DNA of 44,442 nucleotides from an uncultured Gammaproteobacteria bacterium (GTDB lineage Bacteria; Pseudomonadota; Gammaproteobacteria; JAADHQ01): assembly GCA_947258655.1 (NCBI GenBank), contig CAMYJD010000017.1:1-44442 (forward strand). The letters are read 5' to 3'. Each line of letters begins with the position of its first letter. Position 1 is the first letter of the stretch. The notes beneath the pieces were generated by a model. The model saw only the letters and a list, made by a program, of their open reading frames with translations, did not search any database and was not told the DNA's origin. The position numbers were made by a program, and so were the translations under genes. Positions 609-44,442 of this stretch are shown piece by piece.

Positions 609-1273
609 TAACGGGCCTCCAGTATAGTCAGGTTATTGATAATGATCGGCACAAACTGCTGACCGCTGTCATTGAGCATACGCGCAACCGCATTCGATGA
701 GATCGTCGCGCCGGATATCGCATCGATCTGCCAGGCTTGCGTCTTGGTGCCGTGCTTGACCGGCACGATTGCGTGTTCCAGACCGCTAGCGCTTGCATTC
801 GCACGCGCCTCCAATGCGTCAAAGTTTTTGACGAACTCCTTGTCCTTAATGATCTTGTCACCAATTCCAGGGGTTTCCGCCATTTTCAATACGGCGATAC
901 CACGGATGCATTGGCAATACGGGTCAAAGCCATACAGGATACGGATAACATCCTGGTAGCCGGCTGCGGCGGCCTCCAATGCGACACCCTTAAGCTGGCC
1001 GTTTTCATCATAACCGGCATACAATGCTACACCGCTTGTTACATCATCGGCCGGCTGAATTTTGTCATCCATAATGACAAAGTCCTTGCGTGCTACGGCA
1101 CCGGGTATCACGTTATACAGCGCACGTTCGATGGCCTCCTGTTTATTTCGCTCGATCATCGGCAACGTGATGCGATACGATAATACGACCAGCAAACCGG
1201 ATATCGTCGCCACCAACCCGAGCGTGCGCAGCATGTTCGCTGCCGGCGTTGCATTGATAGTTACCTCGCTCAT
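608..1273 (-). CDS. rnfG: Rnf electron transport complex subunit G
   Basis: Periplasm-facing flavoprotein of the Rnf complex, 221 residues. It has one N-terminal membrane helix (about residues 13-35) followed by an FMN-binding domain. The flavinylation motif is visible near the C-terminus as D-A-I-S-G-A-T, with Thr190 the predicted residue that carries covalent FMN (consensus Dxx[ST]GA[TS]). The ATG overlaps the rnfD stop in an ATGA arrangement, and the stop overlaps the rnfE start, so it lies inside a tightly coupled operon. Length and motif match RnfG; nothing odd is seen. Flavin attachment would need an ApbE-type transferase, which is not in this window. Confidence 0.95.
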   Translation of the reverse strand: MSEVTINATPAANMLRTLGLVATISGLLVVLSYRITLPMIERNKQEAIERALYNVIPGAVARKDFVIMDDKIQPADDVTSGVALYAGYDENGQLKGVALEAAAAGYQDVIRILYGFDPYCQCIRGIAVLKMAETPGIGDKIIKDKEFVKNFDALEARANASASGLEHAIVPVKHGTKTQAWQIDAISGATISSNAVARMLNDSGQQFVPIIINNLTILEAR

Positions 1274-39354: not shown

Positions 39355-42300
39355 GTGACAATTTCAGACAATCAACAGCAAACCATTGAAGCAATTGCCA
39401 ATACAGGCATGTTTATGGGCACTATTGCAGCGTACTTGCCGCTGGCCGTCATAGCATGGGACCAGGATCAGCGCACCCTGTACTGGAACAGGGCCAGTGA
39501 AGATCTGTTTGGTTTTACCCAGGAGCAGGCCAGTGGTCAGGTGTTGCATGATTTACTCGATTGCGGCAACGCCCTCGAAATACCGGCACAGGCACCTGGC
39601 ACCGACACTCCTTATATAGCAACAATTTCCTGCAAGCATGCATCGGGGACGGTTATGCAGACATGCTGGAGAGTGGTACCGGCGTCAAAGGCATGCCCAG
39701 CAGGTGTGTCGCATATTGCAATTATTGAAAATGTCAGCAAGCAACTACAACAGGAGTATGAGCGCAAACTCGCCATCCAGTCTTTCAATGCACTCACCGA
39801 ACATCTTAGTGATTTTATCTATATCCATGACCTGCACGGCAACTTTACCAGCATTAATGAAAGTATCGCTTCAGCTCTCGGCTATACACAGGATGAATGT
39901 CTGCAACTGAACATCAGGGACATCGTCGCCCCGTCTTTTCATGACGCTATAAGTCAAAAGATGCAGGAGAAAATATCAGGTCAGTCCAGTAGCAGTCACT
40001 ATGACATTAAGGTCAGGAAGAAAAATGGCGAAGAAATCTGGATAGAAATATCCAATCGTCTGATTTATGTTGATGGCAAACCGGTAGCCGTACAGGGAAT
40101 TGCACGCAATATCGACGAACGCAAAACCTATGAGCATCAGGTTCAGCGTAGCGAACAGAAATTCCGCGGTCTGTTCGAGACGATCGATGATATCTATTAC
40201 CTGCTCGACCATAATGGCGCCATTGACCTGATCAGCCCTTCTGTCTACACCCATCTGGGTTACAGGATTGAAGAGCTGCAGAATATGCAATTTGAAGATC
40301 TCTATGCCATGCCGGAGTCAAGAAATGAAGAACTGGCAACATTACTGGAACATGGCCGGATCAATGATTACGAGATAAACCTGCGGCATAAAAACAATAC
40401 CATCGTTCCATTCTCGGTCTCGGCACGGGTCAAATATGGTGAAAATGGATCAGCCCAGGGAATTGAAGGTATTGCCCGCAACATAAGCCAGCGCAAGGAG
40501 CATGAAAAAATCCTGATGACCAAGGAGCAACGCTTTCAGCGTATCTTCGAATCCATCCAGGACTTTTATTTTCGTGCCGAAAACACCATCGTCAAGTTTG
40601 TCAGCCCTTCATGCAAGGGGCTGTTGGGTTACACTCCAGAGGAAATGATAGGCCATCATACCGAGGAGTTTTATTGTAACCCCGCGGACCGCAACGTTTT
40701 ACTGGAACAATTCCGCAGACAAGGATATTTGACGGACTATGAAATCGACTATCGACATAAAGACGGCACCCCCATTACATGCTCGCTCAATCTCAATACT
40801 GTCAAGGATGAAAACGGAGAAATCGTCGCCATAGAGGGGACATTACGTGATATCACGATGCGTAAGGAAGCAGAACAGGCATTGCGCTCCAGCGAACAGC
40901 GCTTTCGCCGTATCTTCGAGTCTTTCCAGGACCTCTATTATGAAGCTGACATGCATGGAATCGTTACGATCCTGAGCCCCTCGGTTGAAACATTGTACGG
41001 TTACAGACCATCGGAATTGCTTGGCAGACCTGCCACTGTCGTCTATGCAGATCCGAAACAACGCGAAGGACTAGTAAATACACTGGCAGAAAAAGGCTAC
41101 GTTAATGATTATGAGCTGATGCTGGTTAACAAGAAAGGCGAATTAAAACCCACATCCTGCAGTACGCGGCTGGTGTTTAACGAACACGGGAAACCAGTAG
41201 CTGTCCAGGGTGTATTGCGTGACATCACTGAACGAAAAAAATCTGATGCCGCCCTACGCGAGAGTGAAGCACGCTTCCGCTCTATTTTCAATTCCATCCC
41301 GGATGCATTCCTGGAAGTCAATCAATTTAACACCATTGTAAATGCGAGTCCGTCCGTCACACAATTCAACTACCATCCCGACAGACTGATCGGTTCGGAT
41401 ATATCGGTCCTGTTCCGGGACAGAAAGGACTGGGATATTATCAGCCGCTGGCATAATCACCATAACGAGACGCAGCACTATGAAAGCATGCTGCAAATAC
41501 TGGACGGACAGTCTATACCCGTCTCAATAACAGCCTACAAAATCAGTAACGACAAGGAAACCGACGGCAACCTCATCTTTATCATACGTGACATCAGCGA
41601 CAGCAAACACTACGAACAGGAACTGGAACTTGCCCGCGACCAGGCCCTCGAAGCAAGTCGCGCCAAGAGTTCCTTTCTTGCCAACATGAGCCATGAACTG
41701 CGTACGCCATTGAACGCGATCATAGGCTATAGCGAAATGCTGGCAGAAGATGCTGACTACGAAGGCAAACTGGAAATGGCCGCAGACCTGAAAAAAATCC
41801 ATGCATCAGGCATTCACCTGCTCTCTGTTATCAGCGATATCCTTGATCTGTCCAAGATCGAGGCCGGTAAGGTCGAGCTGAATATGGAAAAATTCGCACT
41901 GACGGATTTTGTCAATGACATCATCGTTACCATCGCACCATTGGCCCGCATGAACAACAATGCATTGACGCATCAGTGCGACCTGAACGGCAAGGACATT
42001 ATCGCCGACCCGGTACGCCTGAAACAGGCCTTACTGAACCTGCTCAGTAATGCCTGTAAATTTACCAAGGACGGCACGATCCACCTCGACGTATATTCTC
42101 AGACCGACAGTAAAGGAGAATGGCTCTACTTCAGAATCAAGGATAGCGGCATAGGAATTACGCCAGCGCAGATGCAGAAACTGTTCAACGAATTCACCCA
42201 GGCTGACTCGACAACCACGCGTAAGTATGGCGGTACAGGTCTTGGACTGGTCATCAGCAAACGTTTTTGCCAACTGATGGGGGGAGAGATTCAGGCACAA

Positions 42301-42363
42301 AGCACCTACGGGGAAGGATCCACGTTTACGATTAAATTACCGTTGAGCGAATCAGGCAGTTAG
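39355..42363 (+). CDS. Soluble multi-PAS sensor histidine kinase
   Basis: 1002 residues from GTG 39355 (weak ribosome site; ATG at 39409 is an alternative). No membrane helix is seen, so it senses an internal cue. Six PAS-type domains in tandem occupy about 20-125, 140-260, 265-380, 390-505, 510-630 and 635-755, each ending in a PAC-like RDI.ERK signature. They are followed by HisKA with the phosphorylated His780 in SHELRTPLNAIIGYSEM, and a HATPase domain with the N box (NLLSNACKFT), G1 box (KDSGIGI) and G2 (YGGTGLGLVIS). There is no receiver domain and no response regulator gene next to it. It may control the divergent DUF1302 operon, but this is inference. Confidence 0.93.
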   Translation: MTISDNQQQTIEAIANTGMFMGTIAAYLPLAVIAWDQDQRTLYWNRASEDLFGFTQEQASGQVLHDLLDCGNALEIPAQAPGTDTPYIATISCKHASGTVMQTCWRVVPASKACPAGVSHIAIIENVSKQLQQEYERKLAIQSFNALTEHLSDFIYIHDLHGNFTSINESIASALGYTQDECLQLNIRDIVAPSFHDAISQKMQEKISGQSSSSHYDIKVRKKNGEEIWIEISNRLIYVDGKPVAVQGIARNIDERKTYEHQVQRSEQKFRGLFETIDDIYYLLDHNGAIDLISPSVYTHLGYRIEELQNMQFEDLYAMPESRNEELATLLEHGRINDYEINLRHKNNTIVPFSVSARVKYGENGSAQGIEGIARNISQRKEHEKILMTKEQRFQRIFESIQDFYFRAENTIVKFVSPSCKGLLGYTPEEMIGHHTEEFYCNPADRNVLLEQFRRQGYLTDYEIDYRHKDGTPITCSLNLNTVKDENGEIVAIEGTLRDITMRKEAEQALRSSEQRFRRIFESFQDLYYEADMHGIVTILSPSVETLYGYRPSELLGRPATVVYADPKQREGLVNTLAEKGYVNDYELMLVNKKGELKPTSCSTRLVFNEHGKPVAVQGVLRDITERKKSDAALRESEARFRSIFNSIPDAFLEVNQFNTIVNASPSVTQFNYHPDRLIGSDISVLFRDRKDWDIISRWHNHHNETQHYESMLQILDGQSIPVSITAYKISNDKETDGNLIFIIRDISDSKHYEQELELARDQALEASRAKSSFLANMSHELRTPLNAIIGYSEMLAEDADYEGKLEMAADLKKIHASGIHLLSVISDILDLSKIEAGKVELNMEKFALTDFVNDIIVTIAPLARMNNNALTHQCDLNGKDIIADPVRLKQALLNLLSNACKFTKDGTIHLDVYSQTDSKGEWLYFRIKDSGIGITPAQMQKLFNEFTQADSTTTRKYGGTGLGLVISKRFCQLMGGEIQAQSTYGEGSTFTIKLPLSESGS

Positions 42364-42722
42364 TGGTAATTTGTAGCAGTCACGACCTGATCAGATAAAG
42401 CGACCAACCACGGAGGCACGAAGACACGAAATAAATGGTCGACCGTTACCACGGCTCCAGAGACTTTCATGAATTACCGCAGGTCGTGCAGCAACACTAT
42501 ATCAATGATAAAGACTTTCCGTATTGACTTGCCAGATAACTGTAGCAGTTCACGTCAAATCTGACACATTACAAAACAGATTTACACTTGATTTGATATT
42601 TTTGTATGAGGATAGAAACAGTCGTCACAAACCCTGGAGCAGTCATTCAGTCTTTTTAGCCATTGGGCAGAAATCGGCCAAAAGCGGCCGTTCGAGCCTG
42701 GCGGAATTCTGTAAAAGCAGAC
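42364..42722. other. Gene-free region between the kinase gene and the cassette-like segment
   Basis: No credible gene is found. It contains ACCACGGAGGCACGAAGACA (42409-42428), a phrase often met in bacterial intergenic repeats, and a GGCC-AAAAGC-GGCC hairpin with a flanking GTTC (about 42673-42692) of a type that also recurs in intergenic regions. Two GTAGCAG-t-TCACG-like units occur at about 42374 and 42541. This looks like a graveyard of small repeats bordering the array. Confidence 0.5.
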
Positions 42723-42794
42723 ACTCAACGTTTAAGCTGTGCGGCGCTAACGAAGCGCAGCGTAGTTTGCGTCCGAACGAGCGTCTTGTTAGGC
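42723..42794 (-). other. Candidate integron attC recombination site
   Basis: Read on the minus strand, a 72-base site starts GCCTAAC (42794-42788, R'' consensus RYYYAAC) and ends GTTGAGT (42729-42723, R' consensus GTTRRRY). Between them GCTcgttCGGaCGC and GCGCCGcacAGC can pair with unpaired bases, around a central CGCTGCGC turn. The TAA stop of the neighbouring gene lies within GCCTAAC, which is typical for cassettes. I judge it by pattern only. Confidence 0.7.
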
Positions 42795-43940
42795 TGGTTT
42801 AAATTCAAGCTTCAATCTCTCAATAATGATCTGATTAGTTTGCTCGACGTCTTTTAGCTTTTCATATATTTCAAATTTTCTATTCCCTCTATCACTCAAA
42901 ATACGGCTACTAACGCTACCTATTACTCCAAGCCACCAAGTATTTGTTATTGCTGCAATTCCACCACCGACTAGGTAGCTTAAATATGTTTTACCTGACC
43001 TATCTCCAGCGCTTTTTGCTTTTTCATATAATGTAAGACTTTCATTCTTGTAAGATGTAAATGCAATGAAGGCAAGTGCAAACAACGGAGGCGTGTAATC
43101 CATTGCAAGCTCAGAAGCATCTACTGCGTCATCAAGTGCATCAACAAGTTCTACGTTACTTATTGATCCATTCGTTATGTTTTCACTAATACCACTCATA
43201 ACAAGGTGGCTGTAGACTTCATCGGTTGTGACAACATCAATACTCGGATATTTTTCAAGCGCATCTTGCACATAAGAAACCGAGTCTGTTGCTTTGGCCT
43301 GGAGAACTGATGCAATTTCGCCGTTTGCGCCTTCAATTGCTATATCCCATCCTGGCTGAACTGAGGATTCAGCAAGAATTGCAGTATAGCCATCGGGTAG
43401 GTTCCCATTATTTAGGTATTCAACATATTTTTGTTCAAATAATTTCCCCTTAACTCCCGCGATGAAACCTGCCAAGGAGTCGCCATCTAGTTCACGAACT
43501 TTATCTTCAAATGATATTGAATCAGAAAGGTTTGGATATGCGGCTTCGTATGCATTTATTATTTCCTCAGGGATAATTCCGGCTGAAAGCAAGCCAACTA
43601 GTGTTTCCCCTCCAATTACGATTGAGTCAACGGTAGTACTTTGACGATTAAGTTCTCGATAATACCCGCCTTGATTTTCTATACGATTTTCTAGGTTCTT
43701 TAGATCACTTTCTGAGTACTTAATGTCTCGATAAATATTTGAAGCTGTATCAGATGCTGAATCATAGGTGCTAGATACGTATTCTCTACCAGTTTTTAGT
43801 GCTTCTTTTCCTTGCTCATGAAGTTCGTCCTTATTTTCATCCCAGTACTCTTTGGCTGTTTTACCTGCATCGGATGCATGACCAACCGCTTTCTCAGCCA
43901 GCCTAACTCCTTCCGAGAATATCTCTTTGAGTTTCTTCAT
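42789..43940 (-). CDS. Cassette-encoded membrane protein with predicted PD-(D/E)xK-like nuclease core
   Basis: 383 residues, family not recognised. The N-terminal 100 residues are helical and charged (amphipathic repeats such as GKTAKEYWDENKDELHEQGK). The middle has KGKLFEQKYVEYL (Glu169), then PGWDIAIEG (Asp199), then VLQAKA (Gln214, Lys216). This Glu ... Asp-x14-Gln-x-Lys order with hydrophobic flanks is what a restriction-endonuclease-like core looks like. Two hydrophobic segments follow (about 283-297 and 319-341), then a charged tail. Low GC and cassette position imply transfer. A defence or toxin role is inferred, not shown. The start lies nine bases after the attC-like junction; the TAA stop is inside the next attC. 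Confidence 0.7.
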   Translation of the reverse strand: MKKLKEIFSEGVRLAEKAVGHASDAGKTAKEYWDENKDELHEQGKEALKTGREYVSSTYDSASDTASNIYRDIKYSESDLKNLENRIENQGGYYRELNRQSTTVDSIVIGGETLVGLLSAGIIPEEIINAYEAAYPNLSDSISFEDKVRELDGDSLAGFIAGVKGKLFEQKYVEYLNNGNLPDGYTAILAESSVQPGWDIAIEGANGEIASVLQAKATDSVSYVQDALEKYPSIDVVTTDEVYSHLVMSGISENITNGSISNVELVDALDDAVDASELAMDYTPPLFALAFIAFTSYKNESLTLYEKAKSAGDRSGKTYLSYLVGGGIAAITNTWWLGVIGSVSSRILSDRGNRKFEIYEKLKDVEQTNQIIIERLKLEFKPA

Positions 43941-43947
43941 ATCTAAA

Positions 43948-43999
43948 GCCTAACAGTATGATAACTGAGACCCCGGGGTCTCGTTATCATGTTTTAGGG
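43948..43999 (-). other. Short attC-like palindromic element, copy 1
   Basis: The core is ATGATAACTGAGACCCC (43958-43974) paired with GGGGTCTCGTTATCAT (43975-43990). The stem is exact except for one extra T, resembling the extrahelical base of attC hairpins. The outer ends, CCTAAC on the left and GTTTTAGG on the right, also pair after a short mismatch. On the minus strand it ends GTTAGGC (R' consensus), followed directly by the 383-residue gene. Confidence 0.7.
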
Positions 44000-44010
44000 T
44001 TAACTTAATA

Positions 44011-44358
44011 TTATTCATCTATTGGTGACCAATCAGTAACAGCAACAAATTGTTCTTGGTTTTCACCTTTTTCAAATACGCTTCCAATTGGTGAATCAAT
44101 AAAGGGTATAATACTAGGATCATAATTAGCTATTGTATTTACTGCATAGATACCATGATTGTCTGCATTATTTATATATTCATTATCTTCAAACCCAGAC
44201 ATAAAACGCCACCCACTATCTTCTTCTCTATCAGGATTCTCTCTATACATAAACCGAATGGGATAACCATCAACTACAATTTTATCAGTAGCAAAGCATG
44301 CACTATGATCTTGTACTAGAGGCTTAATTTCTTCCCTTGAAAGTTTAAACTTCTTCAT
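44011..44358 (-). CDS. DUF2185 (Imm33-like) protein, cassette-encoded
   Basis: 115 residues, soluble and acidic. Matches the DUF2185 pattern: CFATDKIVVDGYPIRFMYRE, then DSGWRFMSGFEDNEY, DNHGIYAVNTIANYDPSI and PFIDSPIGSVFEK. DUF2185 belongs to a set of domains predicted as immunity proteins against polymorphic toxins (Imm33-like) and is often found alone. Here it lies inside the cassette-like array, upstream of the predicted nuclease gene, both flanked by near-identical palindromes. A direct toxin-immunity pairing is possible but unproven. The start lies 10 bases after the GTTAGGG junction. Confidence 0.85.
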   Translation of the reverse strand: MKKFKLSREEIKPLVQDHSACFATDKIVVDGYPIRFMYRENPDREEDSGWRFMSGFEDNEYINNADNHGIYAVNTIANYDPSIIPFIDSPIGSVFEKGENQEQFVAVTDWSPIDE

Positions 44359-44368
44359 TCTTCAATAA

Positions 44369-44419
44369 CCCTAACAGTATGATAACGAGACCCCGGGGTC
44401 TCGTTATCATGTTTTAGGC
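44369..44419 (-). other. Short attC-like palindromic element, copy 2
   Basis: Same sequence as copy 1 apart from lacking the extra T: ATGATAACGAGACCCC (44379-44394) and its exact complement (44395-44410) form a perfect 32-base palindrome, framed by CCTAACAGT and GTTTTAGGC. On the minus strand it runs from GCCTAAAAC to GTTAGGG. The last base of R' deviates from the GTTRRRY rule, so recombination competence is uncertain. Confidence 0.65.
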
Positions 44420-44442
44420 TATTTATCATTCTTCACAATAAA
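44419..44442 (-). CDS. Possible 3' end of another cassette gene (partial)
   Basis: Only seven codons (FIVKNDK) and a TAG stop are visible before the window edge on the minus strand. The other two minus frames have stops in this stretch. The stop abuts the rightmost attC-like element, as expected for a cassette gene. Too short to identify. Confidence 0.25.
   Translation of the reverse strand, partial: FIVKNDK

Follow-up and report, generated by a model that had tools for sequence, protein, structure and literature searches.

In integrons, the strand on which an attC site is recombined determines the orientation of the gene cassette and thereby its expression, and this choice has been attributed to the extrahelical bases of the folded site. 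According to PMC2727003, these bases lie by definition on the R''-L'' arm and a G among them decides the strand, and the AAC and GTT of the two boxes are mirrored and hence unable to decide it. For example, when the three extrahelical bases of the VCR site were moved to the other arm, recombination of the bottom strand fell 2.8e5-fold and that of the top strand rose 240-fold, its crossover being at R''. The strand could still be set by the unpaired central spacer in a VCR devoid of extrahelical bases, and IntI1 and VchIntIA failed at attC x attC recombination when these bases were missing (PMC2727003). Clade-specific attC models exist (PMC9024848), and an unusual site is described as replacing the attC at the cassette 3' end in ΔattI-type cassettes (PMC12901181).

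The window analyzed here (44,442 nt) is the whole of contig C17, which ends at 44442, from the 3.48-Mb, 92-contig genome (G000) of an uncultured gammaproteobacterium, and its last 1.7 kb are supported as the distal end of an array of integron gene cassettes. To the right of a PAS-domain histidine kinase gene (39355..42363, plus strand), a chromosomal neighbor with orthologues in 3/3 congeners, and after ~360 bases of intergenic DNA, the minus strand carries three sites and two genes. The GC content is 0.387 in 42723-44442 vs 0.517 in 1-42363, with 0 of 407 segments of the same size equally low. The first-pass annotation had proposed an integron array at this place, and much of what it saw holds: its three attC-like sites were found close to the positions it gave and on the strand of both genes, the two genes each start within ~20 bases of an R' box, the stop codon that it noted inside an attC is that of the 383-aa gene and falls within site 1, the GC drop is real, and the leftmost site as the distal end fits the strand of genes and sites. 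The same annotation had reasoned that genes fixed in the chromosomes of sister genomes would speak against an array, and the kinase orthologues of 3/3 congeners were found to have no adjoining cassettes, the ordinary attC model described below (R1) giving no matches up to E 10 at these loci (L042-L044). Right behind the kinase orthologue stands a urtE-like gene in congener G003 and a different gene in G001 and G002 (the names uvrD, urtE, and toxin-antitoxin in this text come from reading translations). Besides the GC drop, the array assignment thus draws on an attC recovered by an independent model, boxes that pair within their own cassettes, the strand of the genes, and relatives free of cassettes.

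Site 1 (42723..42795, minus strand; R'' GCCTAAC, R' GTTGAGT) is the distal site of the array and an ordinary attC. The covariance search that had been suggested for it was run with our own model, R1, trained on 14 ordinary attCs that come from related arrays and include no window site, and recovered the site (42720-42798) at a score of 32.6 bits (E 4.2e-6 over both strands of the 44 kb), the runner-up in the window scoring 11.2 bits (E 1.1). Site 1 conforms to the canonical attC in its R'' and R' boxes and in the two extra bases on its 5' (R''-L'') arm, and over 7 nt its left box can pair with the 5' end of the cassette it closes. AttCs in genomes G265 (L170) and G185 (L203) match it at 89-91% identity over 65-66 nt. 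Its support comes from the covariance model, as folding showed no excess over shuffles (z -0.4 and +1.1). The distal flank (42631..42722) is like the flank of the terminal attC in a cassette cluster on contig C18 of G003, 42631-42756 being 72% identical over 129 nt to L172:2686-2813. Rfam gave no matches in the window at gathering thresholds. Separately, the non-coding stretch at 42405-42430 contains ACCACGGAGGCACGAAGACACG, which we take to resemble a dispersed intergenic repeat.

The two cassette genes encode a 383-aa protein (42789..43940, minus strand), residues 145-279 of which match the candidate phage-defence model PDC-M72B (E 1.3e-21), and a 115-aa protein with an Imm33 (DUF2185) domain (44011..44358, minus strand; PF09951, E 3e-35). 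Relatives of the 383-aa protein at E <= 1e-5 were found in 7 other genomes of 369 searched, and none among the plasmids or the viral contigs. Its closest relative (63%, G087) has no attC match beside the gene, so genes of this type are not cassette-bound everywhere, and relatives in G185 and G269 have attCs nearby. At L203:2278-2343 (G185), the attC that closes the cassette of a 28%-identical relative is 89% identical to site 1.

The first-pass annotation overlooked that sites 2 and 3 are something other than ordinary attCs and belong to a separate hairpin family, here called H sites: its attC-like label held for site 1 by the covariance model, and for sites 2 and 3 the same model returned background scores (8.1-10.3 bits, E 1.8-6.5). 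Site 2 (43943..44001, minus strand) closes the Imm33 cassette, with a single extra base in its 3' (L'-R') arm. Site 3 (44364..44421, minus strand) has a perfect inner stem with the extra base absent and belongs to the next cassette, which is truncated in the 21-base contig tail (44422..44442); the array is cut off, as the contig stops at 44442. Both sites fold better than all of 200 shuffles (z -5.7 and -6.3 on the plus strand, -5.2 and -7.3 on the minus strand). The R' box of site 2, GTTAGGC, fits GTTRRRY, and that of site 3, GTTAGGG, is off in the last letter. Site 2 has a left box that can pair over 9 nt with the 5' end of the Imm33 cassette, its own; this cassette starts TTAGGGTTA, and the matching stretch of the site reads TAACCCTAA.

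From their sequences, the H sites would be a real attC variant, a family of short attC-type sites that each close a cassette. They resemble attCs of the VCR, aadA7, and ereA2 type in their cassette 3'-end position, R' and R'' boxes, hairpin, and GTT crossover box, as well as in own-cassette pairing, occurrence in arrays, and strand; they differ in lacking AAC at the usual R'' place, in an extra base that is either absent or shifted to the opposite arm, and in a conserved stem, AACGAGAC/GTCTCGTT. The R''-to-R' span is ~50 nt in H sites vs 55-141 nt given for attCs in PMC7370490. Our literature search, which covered few subscription papers, found no description of H-type sites.

One diagnostic trait of attCs is shared by H sites, namely a left box that can pair with the 5' end of the cassette it belongs to. 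This was measured in 44 loci picked for holding H sites or attCs, which gave 51 matches to R2 (E <= 0.001), a covariance model of 17 H sites, and 68 to R1 (E <= 0.1); one R2 match, a plus-strand echo of site 3, was dropped and 50 were kept, and 63 of the 68 R1 matches were parsed for the pairing and AAC counts. In cassettes ending in H sites (n=20), the mean exact run is 5.0 vs 3.37 when permuted (0/1000 as high), a count that keeps one H site (L087:22488) paired with the wrong cassette start across a missed site and an IS in the interval, and in cassettes ending in ordinary attCs (n=46) it is 6.26 vs 3.51. Pairs of mixed kind show this pairing in both directions, with mean runs of 5.27 from ordinary to H (n=11) and 6.18 from H to ordinary (n=17) and 0/2000 permutations as high in either case; H-to-H pairs are weaker (4.67 vs 3.73, n=9, 64/2000 permutations). 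The H stem also covaries, with 30 cells altered on both sides vs 13.9 in shuffles (0/500), in an alignment that had been fitted to the model; two further measures are weak (both-side-changed pairs 21/500, further pair types 36/500).

H sites fail the canonical description of an attC on two counts, R'' = RYYYAAC and extrahelical bases on the R''-L'' arm. The R'' box was read in 47 of the 50 H sites (two were partial, and one beginning at a contig end was left out), and AAC stands at its usual place in 0/47 of these (AAA in 31) vs 62/63 ordinary sites. In nine of the 47, including both window sites, AAC lies two bases inward of that place (TAAAAC in eight), and there the R'' change could therefore be an insertion. 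At the other end of the site, R' is exactly GTTRRRY in 16/50 H sites and CTGTT occurs in 37/50, C preceding GTT in 61/63 ordinary sites. The extra stem base was counted in 48 H sites, 46 of them with a stem score >= 5, and in 62 parsed ordinary sites, 55 of them with such a score. Of the 46 H sites, 25 have it on the 3' arm, none has it on the 5' arm, and 21 lack it; of the 55 ordinary sites, 2 have it on the 3' arm and 38 on the 5' arm, and in 15 the arms are equal. With one arm-pairing procedure for both sets and equal ones left out, this bias gives a Fisher p of 5e-16, to be read knowing that the ordinary AAC count and part of the arm count follow from the method, because R1 contains AAC and a left-arm bulge column. 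Mismatch types (23 G-T vs 17 A-C) do not indicate the folding strand.

The family was searched for in 369 genomes, a sample of the class. An exact-pattern search matched 11/369 (reversed control 0), and R2 at E <= 1e-3 matched 19/369 in 16 families as labelled; two genomes with pattern matches (G299, G314) were not recovered by R2. In 17 of the 17 loci with both kinds, H sites and ordinary attCs are on the same strand. The complete plasmid CP013100.1 of Candidatus Tenderia electrophaga encodes a full-length IntI (398.6 bits), behind whose gene stand five H sites with an identical core, diverging just past GTTA, plus an ordinary attC; it was the sole match at E <= 1 when the 48-nt H consensus was compared with 72,556 plasmids. 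Viral contigs gave 33 pattern matches, which we rejected as H sites, 31 sharing one 34-nt layout that resembles conserved phage sequence. Elsewhere, at L077:9350-9950 (G003), a toxin-antitoxin-like gene pair forms a cassette closed by an H site, and two intI frames with one internal stop each (G345:C1:92229-93176, TAA; G346:C56:7819-8766, TGA) lie on contigs that also carry an H site, 5 and 2.7 kb away, respectively.

Where the array of the window begins is a separate question. The first-pass annotation expected an intI to the right, which the assembly does not bear out: the contig ends 21 bases beyond site 3, and the single IntI of the source genome above the family cut-off is encoded at the end of another contig, C5, its gene starting 0.8 kb from that end. 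The order on C5 is uvrD-like gene, intI, attI-like site, one cassette, attC, contig end, and in 3/3 congeners an above-cut-off IntI likewise adjoins a uvrD-like gene on contigs that end 0-0.25 kb from the array side of intI. Long IntI proteins are encoded in G000 (L012:5905-7302; 465 aa) and G003 (L027:10997-12391; 464 aa), the former with ~150 aa preceding the integron-integrase domain at 153-462.

That the window array is the far end of the C5 integron, the assembly having broken inside the array, is a serious possibility to which we give a little less than even weight. C17 stops within an array whose direction matches the C5 array, and G003 offers a parallel: with R1 at E <= 0.01 it has 15 attC matches on six contigs (C4, C13, C20, C25, C28, C30) and none on its intI contig, C41, and in four of the six (C20, C25, C28, C30) the attCs lie near a contig end, so that these four could be fragments of one broken array. 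Against this, G003 keeps the uvrD-like gene and intI side by side, yet its kinase gene is followed directly by the urtE-like gene with cassettes absent, and in G000 the urtE-like gene lies near the end of contig C58 (437 bases). Also counting against it is the G003 cluster on C4, which is flanked on both sides by other genes within a 108-kb contig that encodes no IntI above the cut-off (the one match on C13 is contig-internal too); the genus therefore has at least one integrase-less cluster. A further point on that side is another possible partner for C17 in contig C45 of the same genome. C45 (L187, ~960-1030, minus strand) contains a sequence resembling, by eye, the attI next to the G003 intI; two attCs follow it and continue to the end of the contig, the 6 kb read contain no intI, and this integrase-less attI is possibly the proximal end of the window array. 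A CALIN or a displaced array end is thus somewhat more likely than a direct continuation of the C5 array; we lean to the integrase-less reading because the genus has at least one such cluster, and the assembly gap remains. The likeness to a CALIN as defined in IntegronFinder lies in cassettes with no intI in reach, as in the contig-internal example on C4 of G003; the difference is that R1 finds one of the three window sites, the default described in PMC9024848 being two.

For the locus and its H sites together, the reading that we favor by a narrow measure is that of a distal array end in which the H sites are a type of attC, cut by IntI at R', with polarity given by the R boxes. IntI would cut H sites at the R' box, on the bottom strand at CCTAA|CAG; the strand would be chosen by R-box asymmetry, the complement of AAC being kept at R' and AAC missing from its R'' place; and extrahelical bases on the R''-L'' arm would not set polarity. 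The wider claim, of a natural attC subfamily across many families of Gammaproteobacteria with polarity set by the R boxes and the extrahelical base opposite or absent, is put forward tentatively and with the lesser confidence. H sites are natural sites of the inverted or base-less kind, yet they stand within normal arrays.

It is also conceivable, if fairly unlikely, that H sites are mechanistically ordinary attCs that have lost or moved their extrahelical bases and take their strand from the unpaired central spacer. The spacer still imposes a strand choice in VCR without extrahelical bases, and since it can do so alone, the R boxes need not set the strand (both from PMC2727003); H sites, moreover, retain a stretch between R box and stem, outside the modelled stem. 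Such an account, however, leaves the 3'-arm bulge bias and the missing AAC unexplained, and the failure of IntI1 and VchIntIA at attC x attC recombination without extrahelical bases, in the same study, tells against it.

Recombination of the H sites on the top strand at R'', in keeping with the extrahelical-base rule, is less probable again. The H extra base occupies the arm to which the bases were moved in mutated VCR, where recombination shifted to the top strand and to R'', a result that argues against bottom-strand use of H sites if the same rule holds (PMC2727003), and the AAC two bases inward in nine H sites, those of the window among them, could serve such a reading. Absence of AAC from the R'' place in every one of the 47 sites read and the frequent CTGTT at R' oppose it, and a cut at R' agrees with the coherent cassettes that the ordinary-to-H intervals form.

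We would put no more weight on an origin of the H sites from attI, which would make them double-strand sites like those of ΔattI-type cassettes and not attCs. This option is notable because CTG|TTA is common by eye to H sites and several attI regions, ordinary attCs having C before GTT as counted above, and because the first of the Tenderia H sites, ~150 bases away from the start of intI, is located where an attI would be expected; ΔattI cassettes are, besides, known in class 1 and 2 integrons (PMC12901181). On the other side, R2 at the attI regions of L012, L027, and L092 gave no match up to E 10, and pairing of the H left box with the 5' end of its own cassette is unexpected of attI copies. 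The likeness to ΔattI-type cassettes, an unusual site in place of the attC, is accompanied by differences: H sites are full hairpins, are conserved across genera, and pair within their own cassettes. Tenderia is a possible exception to H sites not deriving from a local attI.

Transcript elements (terminators or stabilizers) or decayed attCs are very unlikely, since against the GC-rich, near-perfect stems at gene ends stand a gene strand on which no long run of T follows the stem directly, hairpins that recur in 19/369 genomes and covary, the cassette-specific left box, and identical cores around different genes.

A natural and recurrent family with the opposite arrangement, living among the arrays of ordinary sites, makes the extrahelical-base rule directly testable in nature. 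The background scores of two of the three window sites with an ordinary model suggest that attC searches may miss cassettes. If a natural subfamily with polarity from the R boxes does exist, strand choice by extrahelical bases on the R''-L'' arm would not hold for all attCs, and cassettes closed by sites of this kind may be overlooked by current attC models.
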